Assembly (NCBI RefSeq): GCF_020883455.1
Contig: NZ_CP086615.1
Coordinates: 372,001-436,000, forward strand
Origin: Spiribacter halobius
Lineage (GTDB): Bacteria; Pseudomonadota; Gammaproteobacteria; Nitrococcales; Nitrococcaceae
DNA: 64,000 bases
Direction: 5' to 3'
The position numbers were made by a program, and so were the translations under genes. Under the pieces are notes generated by a model, which did not search any database, was not told where the DNA came from, and saw only the letters and a program-made list of their open reading frames with translations. Positions 2,938-57,626 of this stretch are shown here, piece by piece. How positions within the stretch are numbered: the first letter of the stretch is position 1; every line of letters starts with the position of its first letter.

Positions 2938-4056
2938 ATGGATTTCAATGCCCTGCTCGAGCTACTGGTCAACAAGAAGGGCTCGGACCTGTTCATCACC
3001 GCGGGCCTGCCGCCGAGCATGAAGGTGGCCGGGCGGATCATGCCCATCACCAAGAACCCCCTCGGCGCCGAGCAGGCCCGGCAGGTGGTCTACTCGATCA
3101 TGAGCGAGCGCCAGCGCGAGGAGTTCGACGCCACCCACGAGTGCAACTTTGCCATCAGCGCGAAGGGCCTCGGGCGCTTCCGCGTCAGCGCCTTCTACCA
3201 GCGCAACAACGTGGGCATGGTGCTGCGCCGGATCGAGACCGAGATCCCGAGCATCGAGGCGCTGCGGCTGCCGCCGATCCTGAAGGATCTGTCCATGACC
3301 AAGCGCGGGCTGATCATCTTCGTCGGCGCCACGGGCACCGGCAAGTCCACCTCGCTTGCCTCGATGATCGGCTACCGCAACCACAACTCCACCGGACACA
3401 TCATCACCATCGAGGACCCCATCGAGTACATGCACGCCCACCAGGGCTGCATCGTCACCCAGCGCGAGGTGGGCATCGATACCGAGTCCTTCGAGGTGGC
3501 GCTGAAGAACACCCTGCGCCAGGCCCCGGACGTGATCCTGATCGGCGAGATCCGCGCCCGCGAGACCATGGACTACGCCATCGCCTTCGCCGAGACCGGT
3601 CACCTGTGCCTGGCGACGCTGCACGCCAACAACGCCAACCAGGCGATGGACCGCATCATCAACTTCTTCCCCTCGGACCGCCGCGATCAGCTCTTCACCG
3701 ACCTCTCGCTGAACCTGAAGGCGGTGATTGCCCAGCAGCTCATCCCGACCCCGGACGGCAAGGGCCGCGTGCCGGCGGTGGAGATTCTCATCGGCACCCC
3801 GCTGGTCGCGGACAAGATCCACAACGGCGAGGTGCACGAGCTGAAGGAGATCATGAAGCGTTCCGGCGAGCAGGGCATGCAGACCTTCGACCGCCATCTC
3901 TATCAGCTCTACGCCGAGGGCTCCATCACCTACGAGGACGCCCTGCGCTTCGCCGACTCCGCCAACGAGGTCCGCCTGATGGCCAAGCTCGGCGACTCCC
4001 ACGCCGAGGCGCGCATGCAGCAGGCGACGGAGGGGATCAAGCTCGTGGACGAGTGA
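2938..4056 (+). CDS. pilU: PilT-dependent retraction ATPase PilU
   Basis: A 372-residue paralogue of PilT that assists retraction under load. Walker A is GATGTGKST (Lys136) and Walker B lies in APDVILIGEIRA; the His box reads HLCLATLHANNA. The C-terminal extension past 340 residues is typical of PilU rather than PilT. I chose the ATG at 2938 because TGGAGG lies 5 bases before it and PilU proteins begin MDFNALLELLVNK; the frame is open further upstream but only inside pilT. The last codons (LVDE) form one arm of the downstream hairpin at 4041-4083. Confidence 0.96.
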   Translation: MDFNALLELLVNKKGSDLFITAGLPPSMKVAGRIMPITKNPLGAEQARQVVYSIMSERQREEFDATHECNFAISAKGLGRFRVSAFYQRNNVGMVLRRIETEIPSIEALRLPPILKDLSMTKRGLIIFVGATGTGKSTSLASMIGYRNHNSTGHIITIEDPIEYMHAHQGCIVTQREVGIDTESFEVALKNTLRQAPDVILIGEIRARETMDYAIAFAETGHLCLATLHANNANQAMDRIINFFPSDRRDQLFTDLSLNLKAVIAQQLIPTPDGKGRVPAVEILIGTPLVADKIHNGEVHELKEIMKRSGEQGMQTFDRHLYQLYAEGSITYEDALRFADSANEVRLMAKLGDSHAEARMQQATEGIKLVDE

Positions 4057-4083
4057 GGGCCTTGCCCTCACTCGCCCACGAGC
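4041..4083 (+). terminator. stop-spanning inverted duplication of the pilU 3' end
   Basis: The last 19 bases of the pilU end (4041-4059, including the TGA) reappear as an inverted copy at 4065-4083 with one mismatch, separated by a 5-base loop. The RNA would form a stable GC-rich hairpin directly at the end of the operon. No U-run follows; a 7-nt repeat array does. Confidence 0.75.
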
Positions 4084-4112
4084 GTTCAAAGTTCAAGGTT
4101 CCAAGTTCAAAG
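4084..4112 (+). repeat. TTCAAAG-type heptad array after pilU
   Basis: Four 7-nt units of the form TTCAAAG/TTCAAGG (one with an inserted C) follow the inverted copy of the pilU end directly. The same array type follows chpC, trpC, crp and rpiA, and is present between pyk and purC. Here only one arm is present; the expected TTTGAAC arm is not seen before the convergent gene at 4350. Confidence 0.8.
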
Positions 4113-4180
4113 CCGGGAGGGTGCCGACTCCGCGGCTTACGGGCTGGAATCGGCCCCGCGGAATCGCCATGGGCGTTGGC

Positions 4181-4292
4181 GGTGCGTGGAGCGGGAGGGA
4201 CGCGTGGGACCGTAGGCGAGAGGGACCTCGCCTACGAGCTTACAGGGACGTATTCACAGCGTGTCCCGCGCGTCCCTCCCGCTCCACGCACC
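4181..4292. repeat. dispersed fold-back element, copy A
   Basis: Outer arms 4181-4210 and 4263-4292 are 30 bases each and complementary except one G-T position. Inside lies a perfect 10-bp stem with a 6-base loop (4211-4236) and a conserved segment around GGGACGTATTCACAGCG. A second copy in the opposite orientation is at 58380-58487. The core is nearly identical between copies, while the outer arms differ in sequence yet each pairs with itself. It lies between the convergent ends of pilU and the gene at 4350. A weaker CCGCGG inverted pair (about 4129-4172) precedes it. Confidence 0.8.
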
Positions 4293-4349
4293 GGGCACTA
4301 CCGTTGCCATGCCCACAAGCTCGCGGAAATCTGCTGCCACATCCGCCAC

Positions 4350-5042
4350 TCATCCCCGAACCGGTAGCTCGCTGACCCGCAACGCTCTGACGAGCCCCTC
4401 CAGCTCGCTACGCCACGGCGTGAGCAGGCCCCACGGGCAGCAGGCGAGGACGGTGAGGCGCCGGCGGCGGTCGGCGGGCAGGGCGGCGAGGTGGTGGCGC
4501 AGGAGATCGACGGCGTCGCCCTCGTAGCAGCCGGGGTGTTCCTCGGTGAGGGCGATGCGGGCCGGAATACCCTGGGACTCGAGGCTCGCCAGGCCGGCGA
4601 TGGCCGCGTCGGGCACCGTGCGCACCAGAAAGCGCGAGGGACAGATGCGGCCGGGCAGCGAGCCCTGCCCACCCAGCAGCACCAGCCCCACCGCCTCGCC
4701 CAGCGCTTCCGCCATTGCCAGCGCGGGGCCGGCACCGGCGCCGGCGCCCACCACCAGCACCGGTGCCGCCGGTGCTGGGGTCAGCAGATCCTCGCCATGC
4801 GGCCCTTCGAGCGTCGCCGGGCGCCCGGCTGCGAATGCCGCAGGCACCTGCCCCGGCGGCAGCACCCCGGCCACCCAGCCCTCTTCGCTGCTCGCCTGGC
4901 GCACCGGCAGGCACAGCCGCTGCCCTTCGACCTCGGCCCAGAGCCACTGTCCGGGCGACGGCAGTGCGCCGTGCCAGCGCAACCGGAGCAGCGTCCAGTC
5001 GCCACTGACGGGAGTTCGGTCAACGATGCGGGTAGCGGTCAT
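4350..5042 (-). CDS. diverged FAD/NAD-binding oxidoreductase, PyrK-like
   Basis: A 230-residue protein with the outline of a ferredoxin-reductase or dihydroorotate dehydrogenase electron-transfer (PyrK) subunit: an N-terminal beta-barrel half, then a nucleotide-binding half with VLVVGAGAGAGPALAMAE (about residues 98-115) and a late TEEHPGCYEGDAVDLL that resembles the degenerate TxDGSxGxxG strip of PyrK. The FAD motif RxYS is not recognisable and the four-cysteine 2Fe-2S site of true PyrK is absent, so electron transfer is doubtful. The ATG at 5042 (GGCGAG 5 bases upstream) is preferred over an in-frame ATG at 5111. It lies downstream of pyrC' on the same strand. Function is unproven. Confidence 0.55.
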   Translation of the reverse strand: MTATRIVDRTPVSGDWTLLRLRWHGALPSPGQWLWAEVEGQRLCLPVRQASSEEGWVAGVLPPGQVPAAFAAGRPATLEGPHGEDLLTPAPAAPVLVVGAGAGAGPALAMAEALGEAVGLVLLGGQGSLPGRICPSRFLVRTVPDAAIAGLASLESQGIPARIALTEEHPGCYEGDAVDLLRHHLAALPADRRRRLTVLACCPWGLLTPWRSELEGLVRALRVSELPVRG

Positions 5043-5142
5043 GCGCTCGCCTGGTCGTGTGTTGAGTCGCGCCGAGCACCGCCAATAATTCACCTTGGCA
5101 TCGCGGAGCAAGGCACCGCGAGAGGCCCGGCATCGAAGAGGC

Positions 5143-6432
5143 TCATCCCGACTCAGCGTCGCCGTGCACCAGCTCGCCGTTCACCAGGGTGTGGGTGTTG
5201 CGGGCGCTGAACTCCCAGCCGAGGAAGCCGTTGTGCCGGCCGCGGCTGCCGAGGGATTCCGCCCGGCACCACCAGGGCGACTGCGGGTCGACGATGCAGA
5301 CATCCGCCGGCGCCCCGGTGGCGAGGCGACCGGTGTCCAGGCCGAGCAGCGCCGCCGGATGCGCCGTCACTGCGGCCAGCGCCGGCAGCAGCCCGATGGC
5401 CTCCTCCTCCACCAGCCGCAGCACCAGGGCCAGCAGCGTGTCGATACCCGAGAGCCCCGGCTCGGTGCCGGTGAAGGGCCCGTCCTTGGCGTCGCGCTCG
5501 TGGGGCTGGTGGTCGGAGCAGATGATGCCGAGGGTGCCGTCGGCCACTGCGCGGCGCAGGGCGTCGCGGTCGCCGACACTGCGCAGCGGCGGCTGCACGT
5601 GGAAGCGGCTGTCGTAGCCGACGGCGTCGTTCTCCGTCAGGAACAGCTGATGGATCGCGACATCGCCGGTGACCGGCGCACCGTCGCGGTGGGCGTTGCG
5701 CAGCATCGCCGCACCGGCGGCGGTGGACAGCCGCCCGAAGTGCACGCGCAGGCCGAGGGCCGTGGCCACGGCGAGCTGTCGGCCGAGGCCGGCGGTCTCC
5801 GCGGCGACGGAGACACCCGGGAGACCGAGGCGCATCGCCACCGGACCCTCGTGCAGCCCGCCACCGGCGGCGAGCCAGGGATCCCAGGGCGTCAGCAGCG
5901 CCGGCAGCTCATAGGTGGCCGCGTACTCCAGCGCCCGCCGCAGCACCAGCGTATCCGCCACCGGGCGGCCACCGTCCGCCACTGCGGGACAGCCGGCGTC
6001 GGCCAGGGCCGCCATCGGCGCCAGCTGCTCGCCGGCGAGGCCCAGAGTCAGGGCGGCCAGCGGCACCACCCGGGCCCCGCCGGCGGCCGCCGCGCGGCGG
6101 TGCACCAGCTCCGCCACCGAGGGCGTGTCCAGCACCGGCTCGGTATCCGGCGGCAGCACCAGGGTGGTGATGCCGGCGGCGGCCGCTGCCCGGGCCTCGC
6201 TGGCGATATCCGCCTTGTGGGTGGCGCCGGGCTCGCGCAGCCGCGCGGCAAGGTCGATCAGACCCGGCAGCACCCAGCAGCCCTCGGCGCCGATCACCCG
6301 GTCCGCGGCAAAGCCATCGGGCGGCGCGCCCAGGCCGACGATGCGCCCGCCGGCGATGGCGAGGTCGCCCACGGCATCGTGGCCGCTCGCCGGATCCAGC
6401 AGCCGCCCGCCGCGAATCAGGATCCGGCTCAT
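5143..6432 (-). CDS. pyrC': catalytically inactive dihydroorotase-like subunit (PyrC'/PyrX)
   Basis: A 429-residue dihydroorotase homologue without the metal site. Active enzymes have an HxH pair after PGLID; here the segment reads [14 protein letters not shown], so both histidines are gone. The next expected ligand region (normally H-E/D) reads [10 protein letters not shown] later SDHQPH block is retained. In Pseudomonas such PyrC' proteins are structural partners of aspartate carbamoyltransferase in a dodecameric complex, and that is the likely role here. Its ATG overlaps the pyrB stop by 4 bases, implying translational coupling and roughly equal subunit amounts. An active dihydroorotase must be encoded elsewhere. 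Confidence 0.88.
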
Positions 6433-7397
6433 GTTGCCTCCGGCGTGCTCTCGGGCGCGACGCCGAGGACCAGGCTCATCACCGCCATGCGTACCGCGAT
6501 GCCGTTGGTCACCTGCTCCAGGATCACCGAGCGCGGGCCGTCGGCCAGGTCGGAGTCGATCTCCACGCCGCGGTTGATGGGCCCGGGGTGCATGACGATG
6601 GCCTCCGGGTGGGCGACGGCGAGGCGCGCCTCGGAGAGGCCGTAGCGGCGGTAGTACTCCGACTCGCTCGGCAGCAGCGCCCCCTGCATGCGCTCGCGCT
6701 GCAGGCGCAGCCCGATCACCACGTCCGCGTCGCGCAGGCCGCTGTCGAGGTCGTGGTGCACCCGCACCCCGAGCCCCTCCACGTCCCGCGGCAGCAGGGT
6801 GCGCGGCGCCACTACGCGGACCTCGCCGGTGCCGAGGGCGTTCAGGGCATGGATCTGGGAGCGGGCCACCCGGGAGTGACGGATGTCGCCGACGATGCTC
6901 ACCGTCAGGGGCTCGAAGGCGCCCTTGTGGCGGCGGATGGTGAAGACGTCCAGCATCGCCTGGGTGGGGTGGGCGTGCCAGCCGTCGCCGGCATTGAGCA
7001 CCGCCACGCCGGGCTGGACGTGGCGGGCGATGTATTCGGCTGCGCCGCTCTCGGCGTGGCGGACCACGAACATGTCCGCCTGCATCGCCTCGAGGTTGTG
7101 CAGCATGTCCACCAGGCTCTCGCCCTTGATGGTGGTGGTGGCGACGTTGACGTTGAGCACGTCCGCGGAAAGCCGCTTGGCGGCGAGCTCGAAGGTGGTG
7201 CGGGTGCGCGTGCTCGACTCGAAGAAGAGGTTGATCACCGTGCGCCCGCGCAGCAGCGGCACCTTCTTCACCGACTTGCCGATGACTCCGCTGAAGGACT
7301 CCGCGGTGTCCAGGATGTGCGTGAGCAGGGCGCGTGGCAGCCCCTCGGTGGTGAGGAAGTGGCGCAGCCGGCCGTCGGCGTCGAGCTGCAGGCTCAC
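6429..7397 (-). CDS. pyrB: aspartate carbamoyltransferase catalytic subunit
   Basis: A 322-residue ATCase that makes carbamoyl-aspartate in pyrimidine synthesis. Carbamoyl-phosphate motifs [13 protein letters not shown] (about residue 58) and HPTQAMLD, the aspartate loop region GLRLQRER, and [10 protein letters not shown] are all intact. Pseudomonad-type (class A) enzymes have an N-terminal extension and bind PyrC'; the extra ~10 residues before the first conserved helix and the 4-bp overlap with pyrC' fit that class. It also overlaps pyrR by 4 bases. Confidence 0.96.
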
Positions 7398-7906
7398 GGC
7401 GCGCCGCCTTCCAGCACCAGGCGGAGCGGTGCCGGCCCCTGGAGCTTCACCCGCTGCCCGGCCGGGAGCTCCAGCCGGGTGGCGGCAACATCGGCGGCGA
7501 TGGGGAGCTCGCGCCCGGGCCGGTCCACGAGCACCGCGAGCCGCACGGCTGCCGGGCGCCCGTAGTCGAACACCTCGTTGAGCGCGGCGCGCACTGTCCG
7601 CCCGGTGTAGAGGACGTCGTCCACCAGGATCACCACGCGATCATCCACCGTAAGCGGCAGCCGCGAGGGCCGCACCCGCGCCTGCATGCCGCTGCGGGCG
7701 AGGTCGTCCCGGTAGAAGGCGATGTCCAGCGCGCCGGGTGCGCCGGCGAGGCCGAGCCGCTGGTGCAGGGCCTCGGCGAGCCAGACCCCGCCGCTGTGGA
7801 TGCCCACGAGCGTGCACCGCCCGCGGCCTTCGTCGGCGAGCAGCGCCTCCAGCCCGGCCGCGAGGCGGTCGAGCAGGGGCGGGACGTCGGGCAGCTTGGC
7901 GCTCAT
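7394..7906 (-). CDS. pyrR: bifunctional pyr regulator / uracil phosphoribosyltransferase homologue
   Basis: A 170-residue type I phosphoribosyltransferase. The PRPP-binding loop [18 protein letters not shown] is perfect, and the early [14 protein letters not shown] block matches PyrR. In Bacillus PyrR is an mRNA-binding attenuator; in pseudomonads it regulates pyr genes but has weak or no UPRT activity. I see no obvious attenuator before pyrB because pyrR and pyrB overlap by 4 bases. The ATG at 7906 overlaps the yqgF stop in an ATGA, which decides the start over longer in-frame options. Confidence 0.92.
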
Positions 7907-23127: not shown

Positions 23128-23607
23128 ATGAGCGACGACGCCAGTCCCGTCCGCAGCCTGCTGATCCCCGTGTCCGGGGAGGACATCCTCCTGCCGGGCG
23201 CGGTGGTGGCCGAGGTCACGGGCTACGTCGAGCCCGAGGGTGACGGCAGCCCGGACGAGGGCGTGATCGGCACCGCTACCTGGCGCGGTCAGCGCCTGCC
23301 GGTAGCCGCGCTGACCGGCCTCGGCGAGGAGGGGCAGCGCGAGCCAGGCGCCCGCGCGCGGCTGGTGGTGCTGAAGGGGGTGAGCAACCATCCGGAGCTG
23401 CCCTACTTCGGCATCGTCGCCGACGATATCCCCCGCCCCCTGAGCGTCCAGGCCCAGACCATCGAGAGCCTGAGCCACGACGACCTCCCCGAGGGCATGC
23501 TCGCCTGCGTCCTCGCCAACGGCGAGCCGGCGTACATCCCGGACGTGGAGGCCCTGGAGGCGAAGGTTCATCGCGCGCTAGCGCGCGAGTCCAAAGTTCA
23601 AGGTTGA
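23128..23607 (+). CDS. chpC: CheW-like protein ChpC, reading into a repeat array
   Basis: A 159-residue CheW-domain protein, last in the operon: VRSLLIPVSGEDILLPGAVVAEV, then IGTATWRGQRLPVAALTGL and FGIVADDIPRP. It is thought to link further receptors to ChpA. GAGGAG lies 11 bases before the ATG at 23128; an in-frame ATG at 23101 would add nine residues. The final codons are unusual: the frame passes through an 18-bp perfect palindrome (23571-23588) into the TTCAAAG array, which supplies the last residues (SKVQG) and the TGA stop. Confidence 0.88.
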   Translation: MSDDASPVRSLLIPVSGEDILLPGAVVAEVTGYVEPEGDGSPDEGVIGTATWRGQRLPVAALTGLGEEGQREPGARARLVVLKGVSNHPELPYFGIVADDIPRPLSVQAQTIESLSHDDLPEGMLACVLANGEPAYIPDVEALEAKVHRALARESKVQG

Positions 23608-23673
23608 AAGTTCAAAGACATACGGGCGTTTGCGGCGTGCGCCTTGGAACTTTGAACCTTGAACTTTGAACTT
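23571..23673. repeat. palindrome plus fold-back heptad array between chpC and rsmE
   Basis: Bases 23571-23588 form a perfect 18-bp palindrome. A TTCAAAG/TTCAAGG array starts at 23589 and its complementary arm (TTTGAACCTTGAACTTTGAA) ends at 23673, with about 30 unrelated bases between them. The two arms could pair over some 25 bases. It lies between two convergent genes and probably ends transcription from both sides. Confidence 0.8.
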
Positions 23674-24536: not shown

Positions 24537-24593
24537 AAGGCCGGCCCCTTGCGGGGACCGGCCTTCAGGGTCAGCCCTGACTGAGCGCGGGGC

Positions 24594-24598
<5 letters not shown>
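24537..24598 (-). terminator. triple hairpin at the ahcY 3' end
   Basis: Reading from ahcY: ACTGAGC/GCTCAGT (24592-24598 with 24580-24586) is a 7-bp inverted repeat whose gene-side arm includes the TGA stop; next is TCAGGG/CCCTGA (about 24565-24580); then a strong GC stem with one bulge (24537-24565) followed on the minus strand by TTTTCTG. The last is a good intrinsic terminator. Confidence 0.8.
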
Positions 24599-26021: not shown

Positions 26022-26103
26022 TGCAACCGAGCGCCGTTTTCACGATTGCCGCCGGTCGCCGAGCCTCGCCCCGGGTGCTCCGGAGCTGCAGCGCTCCTCG
26101 ACG
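26022..26103 (-). promoter_or_regulatory. S-adenosylhomocysteine (SAH) riboswitch
   Basis: On the minus strand the leader contains GAGGAGCGCTGCAG, then GAGGCTCGG, then AACGGCGCTCGG about 15 bases before the ribosome site. These are the conserved blocks of the SAH riboswitch: GCGC of the first block pairs with GCGC of the last (pseudoknot or closing helix) and the CGAG/CTCG pair forms the other stem. Placement directly before ahcY is the classical context. The element turns expression on with SAH. Boundaries are approximate. Confidence 0.88.
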
Positions 26104-26189
26104 CCAGCGGTCGCCCATGATGGGCGGTGATCGGTTCGTTTCGGTCGTCCACCCCGTGTGCGGATATCAACCTTGCGATTCGGAAGGTC

Positions 26190-26289
26190 AACACAACGAC
26201 ACAACGGGCACAACGATCCACAACGGTTGAGAATTGTTAATGCAATCCCTTGCGTGGTGATTCCGTTGTGCCCGTCGTGTCGTTGTGTT
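26190..26289. repeat. long fold-back of CACAACG-type units between ahcY and metK
   Basis: The arm 26190-26215 and the arm 26264-26289 are complementary over 26 bases with one wobble position; the loop is 48 bases. Each arm is built of 8-9-nt units of the form CACAACGA/CACAACGGG. It lies upstream of the ahcY leader and downstream of the metK stop. A short GC stem with TTTTTAAA (about 26289-26312, minus strand) just after metK may end that transcript first. Confidence 0.75.
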
Positions 26290-26318
26290 TAAAAACCCCG
26301 CTCGAATAACGGGAAGGC

Positions 26319-29755: not shown

Positions 29756-30769
29756 ATGGCGATCAAGGTTGGCATCAACGGCTATGGGCGCATCGGCCGC
29801 AACGTGCTGCGCGCGCTGTACGAGTCGGGGCGCAGCGACGAGATCCGCGTGGTGGCGATCAACGACCTCGGCGACGCCGAGACCAACGCCCACCTCACCC
29901 GCTTCGACACCGCCCACGGCCGCTTCCCGGGGACCGTGGAGGTGAGCGACGGCAATCTCGTGGTCAACGGCGACGCCATCCGCGTGCTGGCCGAGCGCGA
30001 TCCCGCGAAGCTTCCCTGGGGCGATCTCGGGGTGGACGTGGTGCTGGAGTGCACCGGCCTGTTCGCGAGCAAGGAGAAGGCCTCCGCGCACCTGCAGGGC
30101 GGCGCGAAGAAGGTGATCATCTCCGCACCGGCGGGCAAGGAGGTGGACGCCTCCGTGGTCTACGGCGTCAACCACCACGTGCTGCGCCCCGAGCACCAGG
30201 TGATCTCCAACGCCTCCTGCACCACCAACTGCCTCGCGCCCATCGTCAAGCCGCTGCACGAGCGCATCGGCCTCGAGCAGGGCCTGATGACCACGGTGCA
30301 TGCCTACACCAACGACCAGGTCCTCACCGACGTCTACCACAAGGATCTGCGCCGGGCCCGCAGCGCGACCATGTCGCAGATCCCGACCAAGACGGGCGCC
30401 GCCGCCATGGTGGGCCTGGTGATGCCGGAGCTGGACGGCCGCCTGGACGGCTACGCCATCCGCATCCCCACCATCAACGTCTCCATCGTGGATCTCACCT
30501 TCACCGCCGCCCGCGAGACGAGCGTGAAGGAGGTGAACAGCATCCTGCGCGAGGCCGCGGAGGGCGAGCTCAAGGGTGTGCTCGCGTACAACGAGGCACC
30601 GCTGGTGTCCGTGGACTTCAACCACGACCCGCACTCGTCGATCTTCGACGCCACCCTCACCAAGGTGGGCGGCGGCCGCCTGGTCAAGGCCTGCGCCTGG
30701 TATGACAACGAGTGGGGCTTCTCCAACCGCATGCTCGACACCACGGTCGCGCTCATGAACGCGCGCTGA
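29756..30769 (+). CDS. gap: type I glyceraldehyde-3-phosphate dehydrogenase
   Basis: A 337-residue glycolytic/gluconeogenic dehydrogenase. NAD-binding [15 protein letters not shown] is at the N-terminus; the catalytic Cys is in [12 protein letters not shown] and the C-terminal [14 protein letters not shown] is intact. The order tkt-gap-pgk-pyk makes this a central-carbon cluster. GGAGAAG precedes the ATG. The last bases of the gene are repeated in inverted form directly after the stop (30748-30785). Confidence 0.97.
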
Positions 30770-30785
30770 CGCGTTCATGAGCGCG
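30748..30785 (+). terminator. stop-spanning inverted duplication of the gap 3' end
   Basis: Bases 30748-30763 are repeated as a perfect 16-bp inverted copy at 30770-30785. The 6-base loop CGCTGA contains the stop codon TGA (30767-30769). No U-run follows; a CAAGTNN heptad array starts at once. Confidence 0.78.
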
Positions 30786-30943
30786 AGTTGCAAGTAACAA
30801 GAAGCAAGTCGCAAGTCGCAAGTAACAAGTAACAAGCGGGAAGCGGGTAGCCACGCCGACCTGGCAGCGCGTTGCGATGCCGGGGAGCTGAGAGCTCTCA
30901 TCTCGCTTGCAACTTGCAACTTGCAACTTGCCACTTGCCACTC
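30786..30943 (+). repeat. CAAGTNN heptad array with fold-back between gap and pgk
   Basis: The left half is six or seven tandem 7-nt units (CAAGTAA, CAAGAAG, CAAGTCG). The right half (about 30905-30943) is the reverse complement pattern CTTGCAA/CTTGCCA, also with a 7-base period. Some 65 unrelated bases lie between. This is a different sequence family from the TTCAAAG arrays but has the same period, the same fold-back plan and the same place after a gene end. Confidence 0.8.
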
Positions 30944-30965
30944 TTCTCCGAAGGAGAAGCCCCGG

Positions 30966-33616: not shown

Positions 33617-33678
33617 GGTTTCTGTGACGGTTGGGGGCCGGCGCGGCGTCGCGACTTCGGGCGCGCGTTCGACGCGCG

Positions 33679-33711
33679 AGTTTCAAGTTCAAAGTTCAAG
33701 GTTCAAAGTTC
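33679..33711. repeat. TTCAAAG heptad array in the pyk-purC gap
   Basis: Four to five 7-nt TTCAAAG/TTCAAGG units preceded by a CGCGCG-TTCGA-CGCGCG hairpin (33663-33679). A single complementary CTTTGAACTCGAAACTC stretch lies at about 33859-33876, next to the inverted copy of the purC end, so this array too has a fold-back partner across the gap. Confidence 0.7.
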
Positions 33712-33748
33712 GGCCGTCCGGTGGCTGGTGGCTGCCGATACAGGGGCA

Positions 33749-33853
33749 GTAGGTCGGCAAGCGCGCAGCGCTCGCCGACAGCCGCGCGCAACGCGGCAAT
33801 GGAAATGCGCCTGCCGGCGCGTCGGGTACCGCCTGCGGCGGTTCCCGACCTAC
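33749..33853. repeat. REPIN-like pair of inverted GTAGGTCGG repeats
   Basis: A forward unit (33749-33779) starts GTAGGTCGGCAAGCG and ends CTCGCCGAC; an inverted unit (33821-33853) reads GTAGGTCGGGAACCGCC on the other strand. Each is a hairpin and the two share the GTAGGTCGG head, but the inner stems differ and remain self-complementary. Two inverted REP units separated by about 40 bases is the REPIN arrangement known from pseudomonads and relatives. Confidence 0.6.
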
Positions 33854-33881
33854 GTCATCTTTGAACTCGAAACTCCGCGAA

Positions 33882-33926
33882 GCGGAGCGCCGGCTATGGG
33901 GCCTCGCCGCATAGCCGACGCTCCGC
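33882..33926 (-). terminator. stop-spanning inverted duplication of the purC 3' end
   Basis: The gene-side arm 33910-33926 is repeated in inverted form at 33882-33898 over 17 bases with one wobble. The loop is 11 bases and the TAG stop (33894-33896) lies in the copied arm. A further small hairpin CTCCGC-TTC-GCGGAG follows, then GAGTTTCGAGTTCAAAG, the start of the array on this strand. Confidence 0.75.
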
Positions 33927-34796
33927 CTCGCGGTACTTGTCGGCCGTACGCGCCACGATCTCCTCGGGTAGATGCGGGGCCGGCGGGGTCTTGTCCCAGT
34001 CCAGGGTCTCCAGGTAGTCGCGGACGTACTGCTTGTCGAAGCTCGGCGGGGAGCTGCCCGGCTGCCACGCGTCGGCGGGCCAGAAGCGGCTGGAGTCCGG
34101 GGTCAGGGCCTCGTCGATCCACACCAGGCGGCCCTCCGGGTCGTGGCCGAACTCGAACTTGGTGTCGGCGATGAGGATGCCCCGGTCCCGGGCATGGGCT
34201 GCAGCCTCGGTGTAGATCGCCAGGGTCAGCCGGCGGATGGCCTCTGCCGTCTCCCGGCCCACGGCCGCCACCACCGCCTCGAAGCTCACGTTCTCGTCGT
34301 GATCGCCCGCTGCCGCCTTGGTGGAGGGGGTGAAGATCGGCTCCGGCAGGCGGTCGGCCTGGCGCAGGCCCGGGGGCAGCGCGATGCCGCAGACCGCGCC
34401 GGTAGCCTGGTAGTCCTTCCAGCCCGAGCCAATCAGGTAGCCCCGGGCAATCGCCTCCACCGGCAGCGGGGTCAGCCGTCGCACCAGCATGGCGCGGTCC
34501 TCGACCTGGGCGCGCTCCGCCGGGTCCTCGAGTACCGCCTCAATCGGGGTGTCCAGGAGGTGGGTGGCAACATGGTGCCCGAGCCGGCCGAACCAGAAGC
34601 GCGAGAGCCGGGTCAGGACGGCGCCCTTGCCTGGAATGGGGTCGGGCAGGATCACGTCGAAGGCGGAGAGCCGGTCGGTTGCCACCACCAGCAGGCGATC
34701 GTCGTCGACGGCGTAGACGTCACGCACCTTGCCCCGCTGCAGCAGGGGCAGGCTGGTCAGCTCGCTGCGAAACAGGCGCTCGGGGGTCGCTGGCAT
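33894..34796 (-). CDS. purC: phosphoribosylaminoimidazole-succinocarboxamide synthase
   Basis: A 300-residue SAICAR synthase of purine synthesis, of the longer type found in yeast and many proteobacteria. [22 protein letters not shown] and [16 protein letters not shown] are at the N-terminus, and the C-terminal [29 protein letters not shown] is the second signature. It is convergent with pyk and divergent from the DUF156 regulator. Confidence 0.96.
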
Positions 34797-50760: not shown

Positions 50761-51557
50761 GCGACGGCACCCCCGATATCCTGCGCCGCATCCTGCAGCG
50801 CAAGGCGGAGATCGTCGCCGAGCGCAGCGAGCAGATCGGCCTGCGGGCGTTCAGCACCCGCGTCGAGCAGGCGCCGCCGGTGCGCGGCTTCCGCGCCGCC
50901 CTGGAGGCGCGGATCGGCGCCGGCGACGCCGCCGTGATCGCCGAGGTGAAAAAGGCCTCCCCCAGCAAGGGCGTGCTGCGGGAGGCCTTCGACCCCGCCG
51001 CCATCGCCCGCAGCTACGAGGCCGCCGGCGCCGCCTGTCTTTCGGTGCTCACCGACGAGGACTTCTTCCAGGGCCGCGACGAGGACCTGCAGCTCGCCCG
51101 CGGCGCCTGCGGCCTGCCGGTGCTGCGCAAGGACTTCATCATCGATGCCTATCAGGTCTACGAGGCCCGTGCACTGGGAGCGGACTGCATCCTGCTGATC
51201 GTCGCCGCCCTCGGCGACGCCACCCTGAAGGAGCTGCACCTCCTCGGCCAGGAGCTCGGCATGGACGTGCTGGTTGAGGTCCACGACGCCGAGGAGCTCG
51301 ACCGGGCGCTCGCCATCGGCGCGGAGCTCATCGGCATCAACAACCGCGATCTGCGCACCTTCGAGACCGACATCGATACCACCCTGCGCCTGCGCGAGCG
51401 CCTCCCGGAAGAGGCCCTCGTGGTCACCGAAAGCGGCATCCACACCGCGGAGGAGGTCGCCCACCTCCGCCGGCACGGGGTACACGCGTTTCTGGTGGGG
51501 GAGGCGTTCATGCGGGAACCGGACCCGGGCCGCAAGCTGGCGGAGCTCTTCGGCTAA
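50757..51557 (+). CDS. trpC: indole-3-glycerol-phosphate synthase
   Basis: A 266-residue TIM-barrel enzyme. [17 protein letters not shown] carries the catalytic Lys; [18 protein letters not shown] and [22 protein letters not shown] follow; [10 protein letters not shown] closes the phosphate site. It ends the trpEGDC unit. The final 13 codons are repeated as a perfect inverted copy directly after the stop. Confidence 0.97.
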
Positions 51558-51594
51558 CGCCGTCGAGCTCCGCCAGCTTGCGGCCCGGGTCCGG
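51519..51594 (+). terminator. 30-bp perfect inverted duplication of the trpC 3' end
   Basis: Bases 51519-51548, coding for the trpC C-terminus, are repeated exactly in inverted form at 51565-51594. The 16-base centre contains a further CGGC-TAAC-GCCG mini-hairpin whose apex holds the TAA stop (51555-51557). This is the longest perfect inverted repeat in the set. Confidence 0.85.
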
Positions 51595-51696
51595 AGTTCA
51601 AAGTTCAAGGTTCAAAGTTCAAAGACCGCAAGAGCGAGCGTCGGGGCACTGGCTAGCTCGCTCGGTCTTTGAACTTTGAACTTGCAACTTTGAACT
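51595..51696. repeat. fold-back TTCAAAG array between trpC and crp
   Basis: The left arm (51595-51628) has five 7-nt TTCAAAG/TTCAAGG units; the right arm (about 51663-51696) is its near-perfect reverse complement, differing at a few positions. AGCGAGC/GCTCGCT extends the pairing inwards. Each end abuts the inverted copy of the neighbouring gene's 3' end. Confidence 0.85.
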
Positions 51697-51730
51697 ATGG
51701 TGATTTTCAACGCGTGTTGAAAATCACCAT
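51697..51730 (-). terminator. stop-spanning inverted duplication of the crp 3' end
   Basis: The crp codons at 51716-51730 are repeated as a perfect 15-bp inverted copy at 51697-51711 with a 4-base loop. The TGA stop (51707-51709) lies in the copied arm. The TTCAAAG array follows on the gene's strand. Confidence 0.82.
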
Positions 51731-52345: not shown

Positions 52346-52533
52346 TTTTATGTCCTTGTGTGCCGTTGCCGCGGCTGTGTCGCTTATTCGTAGTACACCC
52401 CCGCGGCGACCGCAACCATCTTTTTCGAATCGAGAAACGCGCCGTTTCCCGGGGCGTGCCAGTGACGATATACTACCCGGCTTTTCATTCAAAGCGCGTG
52501 GCCGGCAGGCGCGTGTGCAGGAGGCAGCATAAG

Positions 52534-52950: not shown

Positions 52951-52994
52951 AGCCATCCCTTGGGTGGCCGGACCGTCACGGGAGGTAGCGAGCG

Positions 52995-53819
52995 TTGGCG
53001 CAGTCGGAACGGGTGAAGCTCTACGGCTTCAACAATCTCACGAAGTCGCTCAGCTTCAACATCTACGACATCTGCTACGCCAACACGGCGGCGCAGAGGC
53101 GCGACTACATCGAATACATCGACGAGGTCTACAACGCCGAGCGGCTGACCCAGATCCTCACCGGCGTCGCCGAGATCATCGGCGCCACGGTGCTGAACGT
53201 CGCCCGCGAGGACTACGATCCCCAGGGCGCAAGCGTGACCATTCTGATCGCCGAGCAGGATGACGGCACCGGCATCGAGGAGACCTACGTCACCGCGCCG
53301 GCCTCGCCGGGGCCGCTGCCGGAGACCGTGCTGGCGCATCTCGACAAGAGCCACATCACGGTGCACACCTACCCGGAGAGCCACCCGCATCGCGGCGTGA
53401 GCACCTTTCGGGCGGACATCGACGTCTCCACCTGCGGGCTGATCTCGCCGCTGAAGGCGCTCAACTACCTGATCCACTCCTTCGACTCGGACATCGTCAC
53501 GATGGACTACCGGGTGCGCGGCTTCACCCGGGACGTCGAGGGCCGCAAGCACTTCATCGATCACGAGATCACCTCGATCCAGAACTACCTGGCCGAGGAC
53601 ACCCTGGCGCGCTATCACACCATCGACGTCAACATGCTTCAGGAGAACATCTTCCACACGAAGATGATGCTCAAGGACTGGGACGTGGACGACTACCTCT
53701 TCGGCGAGTCCGCGAGCGACCTTCCGGACGAGGAGCGCGACCACATCCGCGAGGTGCTGCGCCACGAGATGCTGGAGATCTTCTCCGGGCGCAACCTCGC
53801 CCTCAGCGCCGGGCAGTGA
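52995..53819 (+). CDS. speD: S-adenosylmethionine decarboxylase proenzyme
   Basis: A 274-residue E. coli-type proenzyme that cleaves itself to create a pyruvoyl group, then decarboxylates SAM for spermidine synthesis. The cleavage site is between Lys and Ser119 in [38 protein letters not shown] is the class N-terminus. The start codon is TTG (52995) with GGAGGT ideally spaced 8 bases upstream; no ATG is available near the conserved start. Confidence 0.95.
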
Positions 53820-53825
53820 TGCTGC

Positions 53826-53865
53826 GCCCCGGCGCCTTGTCTGGCGTCGGGGCTTTGTGTAGTAT
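53826..53865 (+). promoter_or_regulatory. speD terminator overlapping the rplM promoter
   Basis: An 11-bp GC stem (53826-53836 with 53843-53853, one wobble) followed by TTTGTGT is a fair intrinsic terminator for speD. Its loop TTGTCT (53837-53842) doubles as a -35, 17 bases from TAGTAT (53860-53865), giving a good promoter for rplM-rpsI. Confidence 0.65.
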
Positions 53866-53909
53866 CCCGCCTCTTGATCGGGAGCGACGGCTTCGGAGAG
53901 CTTTTCCCA

Positions 53910-54338
53910 ATGAGGACCTTCAGCGCCAAACCGGCGGACGTGCAGCGCGACTGGTACGTGGTGGATGCCACCGACAAGACACTCGGTCGGCTCGCCTCGG
54001 AGATCGCCTTCCGCCTGCGCGGCAAGCACAAGGCCGAGTTCACGCCCCACGTGGACACCGGTGACTACATCGTCGTGGTGAACGCCGAGCGCGTGGCCTT
54101 GACCGGCCGCAAGGCCTCGCAGAAGACCTACCACCGGTTTACCGGCTATGTGGGCCACATGAAGAGCATCACCTTCGACAAGCTCATCACGAGCCACCCG
54201 GAGCGGGCCATCGAGCACGCCGTGCGGGGCATGCTGCCGAAGAACCGCCTCGGGCGGCAGATGATCAAGAAGCTCAAGGTCTACAGCGGCCCCGAGCACA
54301 ACCATCACGCCCAGCAGCCGCAGGCGCTGGAGATCTGA
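53910..54338 (+). CDS. rplM: 50S ribosomal protein L13
   Basis: A 142-residue ribosomal protein. [30 protein letters not shown] is the L13 start; [18 protein letters not shown] and [19 protein letters not shown] follow. GGAGAG lies 9 bases before the ATG. rpsI follows 25 bases later, the universal L13-S9 operon. Confidence 0.98.
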
Positions 54339-54363
54339 TCCCGCCTGAGAGACGGAACAAGAC

Positions 54364-54756
54364 ATGGCAACCGAGCAGTATTACGGAACCGGCCGCCGCA
54401 AGACCTCCTCCGCGCGGGTCTACCTGCGCCCGGGGCAGGGACAGATCACCGTCAACGGGCGGCCGCTGGATCAGTACTTCGGGCGCGAGACCGCCCGCAT
54501 GGTGGTGCGCCAGCCCCTGGAGCTCACCGAGACTACCGACAAGCTGGACGTCAATGTTACGGTCTTTGGCGGTGGTTCGAGCGGTCAGGCCGGCGCCATC
54601 CGCCACGGCATCACCCGGGCGCTGGTCCAGTACGACGAGGACATGAAGAGCGGCCTCCGCCGCGCCGGCCTCGTCACCCGCGACGCCCGCATGGTGGAGC
54701 GCAAGAAGATCGGCCTGCACAAGGCGCGCCGGGCCACCCAGTTCTCCAAGCGCTGA
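54364..54756 (+). CDS. rpsI: 30S ribosomal protein S9
   Basis: A 130-residue ribosomal protein. [27 protein letters not shown] is the S9 N-terminus, [14 protein letters not shown] the central motif and the C-terminus is the basic [11 protein letters not shown] that reaches the P-site tRNA. It lies 11 bases upstream of tRNA-Gln, so the tRNA may be processed from the ribosomal-protein transcript. Confidence 0.98.
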
Positions 54757-54767
54757 TCACGGTTCAT

Positions 54768-54841
54768 TGGGGGATCGTCTAGCGGTAGGACAGCGGACTC
54801 TGACTCCGTTAACCCAGGTTCGAATCCTGGTCCCCCAGCCA
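54768..54841 (+). tRNA. tRNA-Gln (anticodon CTG)
   Basis: All four arms form: acceptor TGGGGGA/TCCCCCA, D arm GTC-TAGCGGTAG-GAC, anticodon stem GCGGA/TCCGT with loop CTCTGAC (anticodon CTG, reads CAG), and T arm CCAGG-TTCGAAT-CCTGG. The discriminator is G and CCA is encoded. The first base is T pairing with A, as in E. coli tRNA-Gln. Confidence 0.97.
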
Positions 54842-54890
54842 ACATGAAAAAGGCCCGCCACCGAGCGGGCCTTTTTCATGTTGGCTGGGG
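54833..54890 (+). terminator. terminator built from an inverted copy of the tRNA-Gln 3' end
   Basis: A perfect 26-bp inverted repeat joins 54833-54858 to 54865-54890 with a 6-base loop. The left arm begins inside the tRNA acceptor strand (CCCCAGCCA), so the 3' end of the tRNA is itself duplicated in inverted form downstream. The inner part is a normal AAAAAGGCCCGC/GCGGGCCTTTTT terminator usable in both directions. Confidence 0.9.
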
Positions 54891-54962
54891 CACCCGCCCG
54901 GCGATCGATCCGCTCACCCGGGTGCGCCGGCGCTCAGCGCGGCAACGTCATCTTCGCTTGTC

Positions 54963-55102
54963 TATACTCCCGGCGTTTGCCGCCAGGGATGTGCTTAAGG
55001 CCTGTGCCTACCCGGGCCTGCACGGGCAGACGCGGGCCCGAACTCCTGGCGGCATCTCACCTGCATTGAGGACCTCCAGAACAAAAAACAGAGGTAATAC
55101 CC
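54963..55102 (+). promoter_or_regulatory. promoter -10 and structured leader before the lipoprotein gene
   Basis: TATACT (54963-54968) is a good -10; the -35 is poor. The leader is closed by a perfect 9-bp pair GCCGCCAGG (54979-54987) with CCTGGCGGC (55045-55053), and CGGGCC/GGCCCG can pair inside. No known riboswitch motif was recognised. Confidence 0.45.
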
Positions 55103-55474
55103 ATGACAGCTCGCACCCTGCCATTGGCCACGATCCTGCTGCTCGCCCTGTTTCTTGCTGCCTGCGCGACCACCTCGGGAACCCAGGTTTCGGACGACGA
55201 CCTTGGGCAGATCACGAAAGGGGAGACGACCTACTCCGAAGTCATCGAGCGCCTCGGCGAGCCGGACTCGACGAAGACCACCGGTGAAGGCCGCATGATC
55301 GCGTACAACTACTCCGAGGCGCGCCCTGGCCTGCTGAGCTACGTGCCGTACGCCTCCGCCCTGAGCAAGACCGACACCGAGTACCGTGTCGTTTACATCT
55401 TCTTCGATGACAGCGACGTTGTTCGCGAGGTGCAGGTGGAAGACGGCGGCAGCGAGAGCGGGACGTCGCTTTAG
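55103..55474 (+). CDS. SmpA/BamE-like outer-membrane lipoprotein
   Basis: A 123-residue lipoprotein. The signal peptide TLPLATILLLALFLAACA ends in the lipobox LAAC (Cys21). The mature part has ITKGETTYSEVIERLGEPDSTKT, the BamE/SmpA-type motif, and later DTEYRVVYIFFDDSDVVREVQVE. It is longer in the middle than BamE itself, so a BamE paralogue is more likely than the assembly factor. It is preceded by an unusually structured leader. Confidence 0.82.
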   Translation: MTARTLPLATILLLALFLAACATTSGTQVSDDDLGQITKGETTYSEVIERLGEPDSTKTTGEGRMIAYNYSEARPGLLSYVPYASALSKTDTEYRVVYIFFDDSDVVREVQVEDGGSESGTSL

Positions 55475-55763
55475 CCCGGTATTCGCGCTGCCTTGCCCGG
55501 CGGGCGGTTCAGCGCGCCAATCGAGGAGTGCGGGTCGGGCGTCGTTCAGGCCCCTGCTGCTCGGCGCGGACGGGCTTATCCGCCTTCACGGGTCGGAGAA
55601 GACCTTGGCTCGAGACGCGGAGCCGCTGGAGCATCCCCTGCACGTAGCAGCCGCGGGCGACCCGCGGGCGGATGGGCTGTTCCTTCCGCCTGATGCCGCC
55701 GGTACCTCGCGCCAGGGTGGTCGGATCAGCTAGTCTGAACCTCGCGCAGAAGAGGAGGTGCCG
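55475..55763. other. lipoprotein-moaD spacer
   Basis: In these 289 bases I see no gene with codon structure or homology. A CCGCGGG-CGA-CCCGCGG hairpin lies near 55652-55670. GAGGAGG just before 55764 is the moaD ribosome site. Confidence 0.4.
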
Positions 55764-56003
55764 ATGCAGGTGGAGCTCTACGGGGTGTTGCGCGAGGCCG
55801 CCGGGCAGAGCCGGGTGGAGATCGGCCTCTCCGGGCCCGTGCGGGTCGCCGAGGTGCTGGAGGCGCTGACCGAGAGCGTGCCCGCGATCGCCCCGCATCT
55901 GCCGCGCGTGGCCTGCGCGGTGGGGGACGAGATGGTCGGTCGGGACGACGAGCTCGCCGGCGACCGGCCGCTGGTCCTGCTGCCGCCGGTGAGCGGCGGC
56001 TGA
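55764..56003 (+). CDS. moaD: molybdopterin synthase small subunit MoaD
   Basis: A 79-residue ubiquitin-fold sulfur carrier. The C-terminus ends in the diagnostic Gly-Gly (PPVSGG) that is activated as a thiocarboxylate. VELYGVLREAAGQSRVEI is the N-terminal strand pair. The ATG at 55764 follows GAGGAGG; a GTG two codons earlier is in frame. moeA follows after 5 bases. Confidence 0.9.
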   Translation: MQVELYGVLREAAGQSRVEIGLSGPVRVAEVLEALTESVPAIAPHLPRVACAVGDEMVGRDDELAGDRPLVLLPPVSGG

Positions 56004-56008
56004 CGTCC

Positions 56009-57205
56009 ATGCACGAGATCGACGCGGCGCTCGCGCTTTGCAGTGAGCGGGTGGGTGCACTCGCGCCGGTCGCCCAGTCCCTGGAATCGGCTCTGGGTCG
56101 GGTCCTTGCGGAGCCGGCCAGCAGCGTGCTGGATCTGCCTCCGTTCGCCCAGAGTGGGCTGGACGGCTACGCCGTGCGGGCGGCCGATACCGAGGCGGCG
56201 CCCTCGAGCCTTGCCCTGGCCGGCGAGGTGCCGGCGGGCGCCGTGGCGACGGAGCGCCTGCCGGCGAACGGCGCAGTACGCGTATTCACCGGGGCCATGG
56301 TGCCCCCCGGGGCGGATGCGGTGGTGGCCCAGGAACGGGTGCGGGCCGAGCCGGGCCGTATCCATCTGGCAGCGCCGGTGGCTGCCGGCGACGGGTTGCG
56401 GAACCGCGGCGAGGAGCTTGCCGCCGGCGCGATCGTCTGCCCGCCCGGCCAGCGCCTGCATGCCGCGCGCCTGGCCGCCCTCGCCGCCGCTGGCGTTGAG
56501 CGTGTCATGGTGCGCCCGGCGCCGCGGGTGGCGGTGCTGGTGACCGGTGACGAGGTCCAGCCCGGCGCCGGCGAAACGGCCCCCGGCCGTATCCGCGACG
56601 CCAACGGCCCCCTGCTGCGCGGCTGGCTCTCGGAACGCGGCTACCCGGTCGAGATACACCATGTGGCCGACCGCCTGGAGGCCGTTCGCGCGCACCTGGA
56701 GCAGGCGCTCGCCGAGGCCGACGTCGTGGTCACCACCGGCGGCGTCTCCGTCGGCGATTACGACCTCGTCATGCAGGCCGCGGCCGACCAGGGCGTGGAG
56801 ACGGTGTTCTGGCGGGTGCGGCAGAAGCCCGGCAAGCCGCTCTACCTCGGGCTGGCGCCGAACGGCGTGCCGCTGCTCGGCCTGCCCGGCAATCCGGCGG
56901 CGGTGCTGGCCGGGGCGTCGGTATTCCTGCGCCGGCTGCTGGACCTGCGCGAGGGGCTGGCGGTGCCGGGCCCCGAGCTCCTCGGCGGCGTCGCAGCCCA
57001 TCCGGTGCGCCGGGACGGTGTCCGCGACGGCTGGCTGCGGGCCCGCCGCGAGGCGGCGGAGGGGACGGTGCGGCTGCACGTCCTCGATCGTCAGGCCTCC
57101 CACATGCTGAGCAACCTCGGCGAGGCGGACGCCCTGGTCCGCGTGCCCGCAGGCGAGACGCCGCTGCCCGCCGGCGCCACGGTCCAGTGGCTGCCCCTGG
57201 ACTGA
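56009..57205 (+). CDS. moeA: molybdopterin molybdenumtransferase MoeA
   Basis: A 398-residue enzyme that inserts molybdate into adenylylated molybdopterin. LPPFAQSGLDGYAVRA, FTGAMVPPGADAVV, VLVTGDEVQPG, TTGGVSVGDYDLV and LGLPGNPAAVLAG are all present in order. It forms a unit with moaD. Its partner MoaB lies at 44.9 kb. Confidence 0.96.
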   Translation: MHEIDAALALCSERVGALAPVAQSLESALGRVLAEPASSVLDLPPFAQSGLDGYAVRAADTEAAPSSLALAGEVPAGAVATERLPANGAVRVFTGAMVPPGADAVVAQERVRAEPGRIHLAAPVAAGDGLRNRGEELAAGAIVCPPGQRLHAARLAALAAAGVERVMVRPAPRVAVLVTGDEVQPGAGETAPGRIRDANGPLLRGWLSERGYPVEIHHVADRLEAVRAHLEQALAEADVVVTTGGVSVGDYDLVMQAAADQGVETVFWRVRQKPGKPLYLGLAPNGVPLLGLPGNPAAVLAGASVFLRRLLDLREGLAVPGPELLGGVAAHPVRRDGVRDGWLRARREAAEGTVRLHVLDRQASHMLSNLGEADALVRVPAGETPLPAGATVQWLPLD

Positions 57206-57268
57206 GCCGCGCTCCCGCCCTGCACGACCGTACGCCCGCCGCCCGGGGCCGGGGAGCACGCGGGCCGG

Positions 57269-57469
57269 CTACTTCCGGAAGAACCAGAGGATCAGCGTCA
57301 GCACCACGCTCACGATGATCGAGGTCATGATCGGGAAGTAGAAGGTGAACCCCTCCCGGCGCACCAGGATATCCCCCGGCAGCCGCCCCAGCCCGAGCTT
57401 CTGCAGCACCGGCCACAGCAGCCCCACGAGAAGGATCACCAGGCCCAGGATGATGAGGAATCTCTGCAT
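57269..57469 (-). CDS. DUF2905 small membrane protein
   Basis: A 66-residue protein with two hydrophobic helices (about 4-22 and 44-63) flanking the conserved GLGRLPGDILVRREGFTFYFPI, the DUF2905 motif. Function unknown; predicted inner-membrane. The ATG at 57469 is chosen because the frame upstream runs into the TTCAAAG array (57480 on). It lies downstream of rpiA. Confidence 0.9.
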   Translation of the reverse strand: MQRFLIILGLVILLVGLLWPVLQKLGLGRLPGDILVRREGFTFYFPIMTSIIVSVVLTLILWFFRK

Positions 57470-57479
57470 GGAATGACGT

Positions 57480-57598
57480 AGTTCAAAGTTCAGGTTCAAA
57501 GTTCAAAGACAGCGAGCCGGACCGCCGTGCTCCAGCCGATGAAGCTGGCATCAAGTCTCCCCCTCATACTTTGAACGTTGAACTGAGCGCTTTGAACT
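57480..57598 (-). repeat. fold-back TTCAAAG array between rpiA and DUF2905
   Basis: One arm (57480-57508) has four TTCAAAG-type units. The other (about 57567-57598) reads CTTTGAACGTTGAAC...CTTTGAACTC. About 60 bases lie between. On the rpiA strand the array starts GAGTTCAAAG directly after the inverted copy of the rpiA end. Confidence 0.78.
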
Positions 57599-57626
57599 CG
57601 GGTCGAGCGCATCAGCGCTCGACCCG
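57599..57626 (-). terminator. stop-spanning inverted duplication of the rpiA 3' end
   Basis: The last coding bases (57615-57626) are repeated as a perfect 12-bp inverted copy at 57599-57610. The 4-base loop TGAT holds the TGA stop (57612-57614). Confidence 0.78.

Follow-up and report, generated by a model that had tools for sequence, protein, structure and literature searches.

In the stretch of the Spiribacter halobius genome analysed in this work (NZ_CP086615.1, positions 372,001-436,000 of the forward strand; 64,000 nt, 71% GC; referred to as the window), the ends of six genes (pilU, gap, purC, trpC, crp and rpiA) were followed by inverted copies of their own last coding bases, forming long, gene-specific hairpins. 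In all six loci the inverted copy ended directly at an array of 7-nt units, mostly AG(TTCAARG)n, termed here the heptamer arm. This association of hairpin and arm was real and strong. In 20 evenly spaced stretches of 20 kb (400 kb, window excluded, 332 gene ends) from the same genome, a single contig of 4,172,350 bp labelled G000:C1, hairpins scoring at least 12 were present at 8 of 16 arm-bearing gene ends, all 8 over the stop codon, vs. 17 of 316 arm-less ends, 3 over the stop codon; two of these 3 belonged to another palindromic repeat and one touched the last base only, none being a clear coding copy. In the window, chosen for showing this feature and counted separately, the figures were 6 of 9 arm-bearing vs. 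0 of 54 arm-less ends. A preliminary description of the window had placed the copies at the ends of many transcription units; these counts did not bear out a general trait of such ends, the copies going with a repeat element.

The same was seen around individual arms when the window, the evenly spaced sample and stretches picked for containing the 14-mer AGTTCAAAGTTCAA were taken together (688 kb). One hundred and two of 115 arms were counted, leaving out those with scores below 28 or near a stretch end: 63 faced a gene 3' end, 27 a gene start and 12 other sequence (8, 2 and 0 in the window; 15, 5 and 7 in the evenly spaced sample; 40, 20 and 5 in the AGTTCAAAGTTCAA-chosen stretches). Arms facing a gene 3' end abutted a stem of at least 7 bp in 45 of 63 cases and of at least 10 bp in 29, vs. 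1.9% and 0% of 630 shuffled flanks; the corresponding values were 4 and 1 of 27 for arms facing a gene start, and 6 and 5 of 12 for the other arms. For the evenly spaced stretches alone, stems of at least 7 bp were found on 13 of 15 flanks at 3' ends vs. 1 of 5 at gene starts. Over all sets, a tighter stem test gave 43 of 63 for the 3'-end arms vs. 0.5% (shuffled) and 6.3% (same flank shifted). Flanks at gene starts showed a slight surplus of short stems (at least 5 bp in 7 of 27, vs. 4.9% of shuffles), one of the 7 being a probable missed gene end. Gene ends were taken from a home-made caller, not from a standard annotation, and some flanks assigned to gene starts may be missed gene ends (e.g. 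position 4588 of stretch L064); some weak arms may be false, the Markov control having given 15 arm-like matches vs. the 115 arms. The purC arm (score 21.2) was among those excluded and was entered by hand only for the tally of mismatch types; crp stands as “NONE” in the stem table, the scan having run the crp arm into the copied arm. Hairpins as a general trait of gene ends in the lineage were rejected: among 124 gene ends of relatives (G003, G004, G020, G021, G022 and G024; in G001 the caller found 0 genes and in G002 only 3), none had a stem of at least 8 bp with its centre between -30 and +8 nt relative to the stop codon, whereas 2 ends had such a stem between +8 and +12 and 8 ends between +20 and +30.

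The gene-end hairpins and shorter stems of the window were the following:

4041-4083, plus strand: hairpin at the 3' end of pilU (PilT/PilU family by NCBIfam); stem of 20 with 1 mismatch, loop CTT, stop codon TGA in the coding arm.
23571-23588, plus strand: 7-bp stem adjoining the left arm of the 23588-23673 element, at an open reading frame with no NCBIfam match.
30747-30786, plus strand: hairpin at the 3' end of gap; 17 bp, perfect, stop codon in the loop CGCTGA.
30943-30959, plus strand: 7-bp hairpin CTTCTCC GAA GGAGAAG on the pgk (5') side, including a Shine-Dalgarno-like sequence.
33662-33678, plus strand: 7-bp stem adjoining the left arm downstream of pyk.
33875-33933, minus strand: hairpin at the 3' end of purC; 28-bp stem with 3 mismatches, 2 of them G.U in the mRNA sense.
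51519-51594, plus strand: hairpin at the 3' end of trpC; 30 bp, perfect, stop codon TAA in the middle of the loop.
51697-51730, minus strand: hairpin at the 3' end of crp; 15 bp, perfect, the stop codon TGA beginning the copied arm.
57599-57626, minus strand: hairpin at the 3' end of rpiA; 12 bp, perfect, loop TGAT formed by the stop codon plus 1 nt.

NCBIfam models were matched above the cut-off by the PilT/PilU family gene, gap (GAPDH-I), pyk, purC, trpC, crp, rpiA and ahcY; the gene 3' of gap matched the pgk model below the cut-off. Seven such loci had been listed in the preliminary description. Six were recovered close to where it had placed them, with fold z-scores from -4.9 to -12.7 and none of 200 shuffles as good, whereas the seventh, a 7-bp repeat at the end of ahcY (24580-24598), turned out to be ordinary (z-score -1.8, equalled by 10 of 200 shuffles, no arm adjoining). 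Fifteen inverted repeats scoring at least 11 were found in the window, vs. 3, 4 and 4 in the three sequences of an order-3 Markov control (best scores 12, 14 and 13); five of the six hairpins beat this control, and only rpiA (score 12) would not on its own. A wider scan gave a count above random expectation: 30 inverted repeats scoring at least 14 in the 20 evenly spaced stretches, vs. 1 in the Markov control, these 30 taking in other repeat families and arm pairs besides gene-end copies. Chance GC-rich hairpins were rejected on the Markov controls, the shuffled flanks and the fold z-scores.

Thirty-seven stems of at least 10 bp near counted arms were used to describe the anatomy of the hairpins. 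Twenty-eight were perfect and 7 had one mismatch (12 mismatches in 665 bp overall, 1.8%), 27 had loops of 3-4 nt, and 28 ended no more than 1 nt from the arm. The residual mismatches, read in the mRNA sense and with purC included, were 7 G.U, 2 A.C and 8 others; these numbers are small, and the surplus of G.U is a weak hint of selection at the RNA level. The earlier wording “centred on the stop codon” fitted a sharp subset but was not general: in 30 of the 37 stems the distance between the centre and the last base of the stop codon was at most 12 nt, and 10 of 65 arm-bearing gene ends had a stem of at least 6 bp whose centre fell exactly 1 nt before that base, this being the commonest position. 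The loop frequently contained the stop codon. The outer stems all differed in sequence, with no stem common to the copies of the kind found in REP/RAYT elements. The copies had been said not to be one inserted repeat, which was right for the copies themselves, different from gene to gene, but overlooked the common arm beside them.

The arms usually belonged to a paired element, in which two inward-facing arms, mostly AG(TTCAARG)n ... (CYTTGAA)nCT, surrounded an unrelated spacer; between convergent genes the full order ran from one gene end through its inverted copy and an arm to the spacer, and on through the second arm and a second inverted copy to the other gene end. The tandem intergenic units were confirmed as 7 nt long, the arms having a period of 7, and the commonest arm length over all stretches, in 35 of 90 paired arms, was 30 bp (4 x 7 + 2), the typical sequence being AGTTCAAAGTTCAARGTTCAAAGTTCAAAG or a near variant. 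Arms scoring at least 25 formed 45 inward-facing pairs, with spacers of 19-182 nt, and 13 were unpaired; the 14-mer AGTTCAAAGTTCAA occurred 38 + 38 times in the genome. The two arms of one element differed by 22% (28 of 45 pairs comparable). With the window included, 7 of 53 junctions between convergent genes carried an arm, as did 13 of 283 between co-directional and 1 of 55 between divergent genes. A 10-mer was shared in 20 of 990 pairs of spacers, and longer similarity was confined to three spacers that carried REP-like inserts. As the arms were common and the spacer interiors unrelated, a copy-and-paste element of constant interior, like a miniature inverted-repeat transposable element, was rejected. 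The arms of the window were:

4084-4112, plus strand: heptamer arm adjoining the copied pilU end, with no partner seen up to 300 bp away.
23588-23617 (plus) and 23643-23673 (minus): paired arms, spacer of 25 nt.
30786-30836 (plus) and 30906-30942 (minus): paired arms with AGTNNCA-type heptamers, between gap and the pgk-like gene.
33679-33711 (plus) and 33855-33874 (minus; weak, score 21.2): arms of the element 33679-33874, with a REP-like insert at 33749-33853 in the spacer (by eye).
51595-51624 (plus) and 51667-51696 (minus): paired arms of the element 51595-51696, between trpC and crp; spacer of 42 nt.
57480-57508 (plus) and 57568-57598 (minus): paired arms of the element 57480-57598, spacer of 59 nt.

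Other repeats were also observed. The REP-like sequence at 33749-33853 began with GTAGGTCGGCAAGCG (by eye), and two RAYT-like Y1_Tnp matches were located outside the window (G000:C1:445187-446140). A second type of inverted array pair, with CACAACGA-type arms, was found at 26190-26290, upstream of ahcY, where a SAH riboswitch (RF01057) was also present (26022-26105, minus strand); similar arrays occurred in L035 (15211) and L041 (17887). A further insert with recurring ends (GATTACG.AC.TGC) interrupted some heptamer arms (L066 4784-5148, L067 7791 and L068 4060-4366). The other palindromic repeat family, CTAGCCCG..ATCTCACCGATCCGCG-like, was represented in L039 (16442-16503), L045 (7162-7225), L031 (10039), L034 (2788) and L041 (2055), and provided the TAG stop codon of the adjacent gene in L034 and L045. 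Nine reverse transcriptase matches were found in G000:C1 (e.g. 652663-653280), six of them with equal scores; the frames of these six and of a seventh were 506 aa long. The matches presumably belong to group II introns, a guessed class.

The direction of copying was addressed by comparing trpC, crp and gap with their orthologues in other genera (one trpC and six crp loci with unreadable C-termini were left out). The coding arm was conserved in the relatives for all three genes, and a perfect stem of at least 10 bp over the stop codon was found in 0 of 22 trpC, 0 of 17 crp and 1 of 28 gap orthologues; no heptamer arm was present at any of these 67 ends. Since the coding arm was kept and the copy missing, the coding sequence preceded the copy; to judge from these comparisons, the ancestral side of the stem is the coding arm, with the copy a later addition. 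At empty trpC and crp sites no pre-existing hairpin with a 10-bp stem over the stop codon was seen (0 of 22 and 0 of 17; three genes, other genera only). In crp, a native 5-bp fold-back, TCAAC ACGC GTTGA, holds the conserved NTR-stop end, and the remaining copy runs on after the stop codon. The stop of gap was TAATG in all seven genomes of the genus g2 searched (L100-L103 and L105-L107), and so shares bases with what may be the start codon of the following frame; the gap-pgk spacer of S. halobius is therefore most simply an insertion, and, together with the 67 arm-less ends, this gives the empty sites expected of a transposable element. The same overlap makes it doubtful that gap is the end of a transcription unit, as all of these genes had been supposed to be. 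Such copying was rare elsewhere among the ends examined.

The copies had also been regarded as gene-specific terminators, which was left unproven. Stems of intrinsic terminators are followed by a U-tract; here, the 28 of 37 stems reaching within 1 nt of the arm were followed 3' by the AGUUCAAAG-type sequence, without a U-tract. T-tracts near copies (tRNA terminators and L069) lay inside or upstream of the copied stretch: in L045 (18334-18386) the copy was located past the A-tract/T-tract terminator of a tRNA-Leu and repeated the tRNA end, and in L069, beside the arm at 4157-4186, it repeated the T-tract of the upstream terminator (by eye; a fold of -23.8 kcal/mol precedes the T-tract). Selection for terminating the same transcript can hardly have made copies placed past a terminator, and terminator selection alone is insufficient to account for them. 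Selection nevertheless seems to shape their retention, long stems being kept at 3' ends and not at gene starts. In the window, the terminator hairpin of a tRNA-Gln (54829-54894; stem 30, score 27, i.e. 1 mismatch) reached back into the 3' end of the tRNA, with no arm.

In our estimation the chances are about even that the copies arose by fold-back (template-switch) synthesis beside the arm and were kept at gene 3' ends by selection at the mRNA level. The arm would set the boundary, the copy stopping where the arm starts; the copies repeated whatever sequence adjoined the arm, even past a terminator, as in L045 and L069. DNA synthesis would halt at the arm or be broken off by it, its 3' end would snap back on short GC-rich complementarity near the stop codon, and the gene end would be copied backwards for about 7-33 nt, the product staying between gene and arm; this may have happened at insertion of the element or recurrently, and repeated template switching may keep both sides of the stem matched. 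Copies would persist where harmless or helpful (gene 3' ends and tRNA ends), possibly acting as hairpins at the 3' end of the mRNA or in the manner of terminators, and would be short or absent on the gene-start side. The low divergence of the stems (1.8%) compared with that of the element arms (22%) suits a recent origin or a continuing correction. The preliminary description had invoked either an active process or strong selection; an inverted-copying process is the best explanation for copies that are gene-specific, non-random and recurrent, with the amendment that they are tied to a repeat element. More doubtfully, the arms may mark an undescribed DNA transaction, the snap-back copying of the host flank up to the arm, either as the route by which such elements join DNA ends or as a reaction recurring at them; if so, about 80 gene-specific hairpins scoring at least 12 would have been made from coding sequence, extrapolating from 8 per 400 kb.

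Several observations weigh against fold-back synthesis beside the arm. Eighteen of the 63 gene-end arms had no abutting stem of at least 7 bp, and arms from other phyla abutted such a stem in only 2 of 107 cases (shuffled 2 of 535; 80 loci among the matches listed). The single exception among the gap orthologues, a paralogue in the relative G022 (L127), had a 24-bp stop-centred hairpin with 1 mismatch and no arm; copying thus does not strictly need the arm and is not confined to the S. halobius genome. The relatives compared belonged to other genera, none of the 29 searched sharing the genus. As the two arms need not have been identical at the outset, the 22% divergence between them may be no measure of age. 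Stem length was not correlated with arm-arm pairing (Spearman -0.17, p 0.21, n 55) or with arm quality (0.09, p 0.49, n 63), nor related to replication orientation (p 0.89); there is therefore no direct sign that the arms stall the fork, and a stalling effect that grows with the pairing or quality of the arms, or that depends on the direction of replication, was rejected. Loss of a palindrome nuclease was also rejected, SbcD being weak alike in the genome itself and in the relatives (14 of 16 matched, 0 over the cut-off), and the ExoI C-domain was absent from 16 of 16 genomes and thus no distinguishing mark of S. halobius.

Selection alone, with the hairpins serving as the terminators or mRNA 3' stabilisers of the species, arising by ordinary mutation and merely followed by the arms, would fit the bias of abutting stems towards 3' ends, the biased placement of the element among junctions, the predominance of G.U over A.C mismatches and the short stop-in-loop hairpins at 10 of 314 arm-less gene ends. 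Coding-derived, near-perfect stems of 20-33 bp are hard to gain by point mutation, however, and with copies lying past T-tract terminators and an arm, not a U-tract, 3' of the stems, this explanation is distinctly unlikely. Group IIC introns insert at terminators, and a small mobile element might in the same way have entered at the 3' base of existing stop-overlapping terminator hairpins; the well-defined ends of the arms (AG...CT), which lay at the base of the hairpin for 28 of 37 stems, the preference for gene 3' ends and the long arm-less hairpin in L127 agree with such a choice of target site. Potential targets were nevertheless scarce: clear coding-copied stems scoring at least 12 were found at 0 of 316 arm-less ends of the evenly spaced stretches, the targeted stretches gave a single one, next to REP-like sequence (L068 5426), and a long hairpin was present at 1 of 67 orthologous ends, in relatives that are other genera, the ancestor itself being unseen. 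Target-site choice is quite unlikely.

A one-time event is unlikely too. Here the element would have been inserted at double-strand breaks, and fold-back and extension of the broken 3' ends would have left copies on both sides with no later maintenance, as in the foldback priming at breaks described for yeast in the cited part of PMC10622511. Copies did flank both sides of many elements between convergent genes, and there was a weak surplus of stems on 5' flanks, but 35 of 37 stems were perfect or had one mismatch, leaving few decayed intermediates even though paired arms differ by 22%, and stem length was unrelated to arm divergence.

The heptamer arm itself was widespread. At least 118 stretches of the genome collection contained the arm word AGTTCAARGTTCAARGTTCAAAG; among the groups given in their record titles were Acidobacteria, Bacteroidota, Verrucomicrobia, Deltaproteobacteria, Levybacteria, Chlorobiaceae and a cyanobacterium. 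Inward-facing pairs were seen in 10 of 79 arm-bearing loci and outward-facing pairs in none (80 loci examined among the matches listed). Heptamer arms were also observed in 38 viral-contig stretches of IMG/VR (L289-L326). One further arm search across genomes returned few, long arrays, and the 14-mer AGTTCAAAGTTCAA was in none of the 29 nearer relatives. A near-identical 23-mer occurred in 2 of 369 genomes drawn from the class, S. halobius itself and G222; none of the G222 arms examined adjoined a long stem (the best was a stem of 11 with a score of 8 and a loop of 20), and G222 was rejected as a second genome with the same phenomenon. The abutting hairpins were special to S. halobius among the genomes examined.

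If the proposed origin is right, a genome can build perfect hairpins from its own coding ends, each in one copying event, a point of relevance to the long-standing question of how long RNA stems originate; the widespread and unexplained intergenic heptamer repeats would gain a measurable footprint in one species, and the loci would offer natural substrates for template-switching tests in bacteria. Gene-specific inverted copies beside heptamer arms were not found in the titles or displayed abstracts of the open-licence PMC papers among the matches listed, and a search with the arm letters listed one unrelated paper (oleate hydratase). The components resemble known things (template-switch hairpins, heptamer repeats and 3'-end elements), their combination being absent from the literature searched.

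Cyanobacterial STRR are intergenic heptamer repeats, and REP/BIME elements occur at gene 3' ends; REP stems belong to the element and are common to all copies, unlike the outer stems of S. halobius, which are copies of the host gene. The element also resembles REP/BIME elements with RAYT transposases, as portrayed in the part of PMC2817692 cited, in being small, intergenic and palindromic, and S. halobius has REP-like inserts and RAYT-like genes as well. The TAACTGA repeats of Beggiatoaceae share 7-nt intergenic units and a patchy distribution over phyla; in the cited sections of PMC4679880 they are direct repeats, mostly before start codons, whereas the arms of S. halobius form inverted pairs that favour gene 3' ends and have gene-specific hairpins along their outer edges. 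The DNA-uptake-sequence terminators of Neisseria and Pasteurellaceae (PMC1852404, in part) likewise form gene-end hairpins from close complementary copies, but of a repeated word, while the gene-abutting hairpin described here was built from gene sequence. Foldback priming at breaks has in common the snap-back synthesis and the inverted copy of the sequence beside a 3' end, and the cited part of PMC10622511 concerns chromosome rearrangements in yeast, not short gene-end hairpins. A further related system is quasipalindrome template-switch mutagenesis, for which the portions of PMC8794818 and PMC7202029 cited describe a reverse-complement copy of adjoining sequence, a perfect stem and the correction of imperfect stems, and by which RNA hairpins have been proposed to be created and maintained (PMC8794818). 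By contrast with what those portions describe, the copies of S. halobius are tied to a repeat element, occur at many gene 3' ends, consist of coding sequence and end at the arm; as in template-switch hairpins, one side of the stem appeared ancestral and the other a new copy in the three genes compared.

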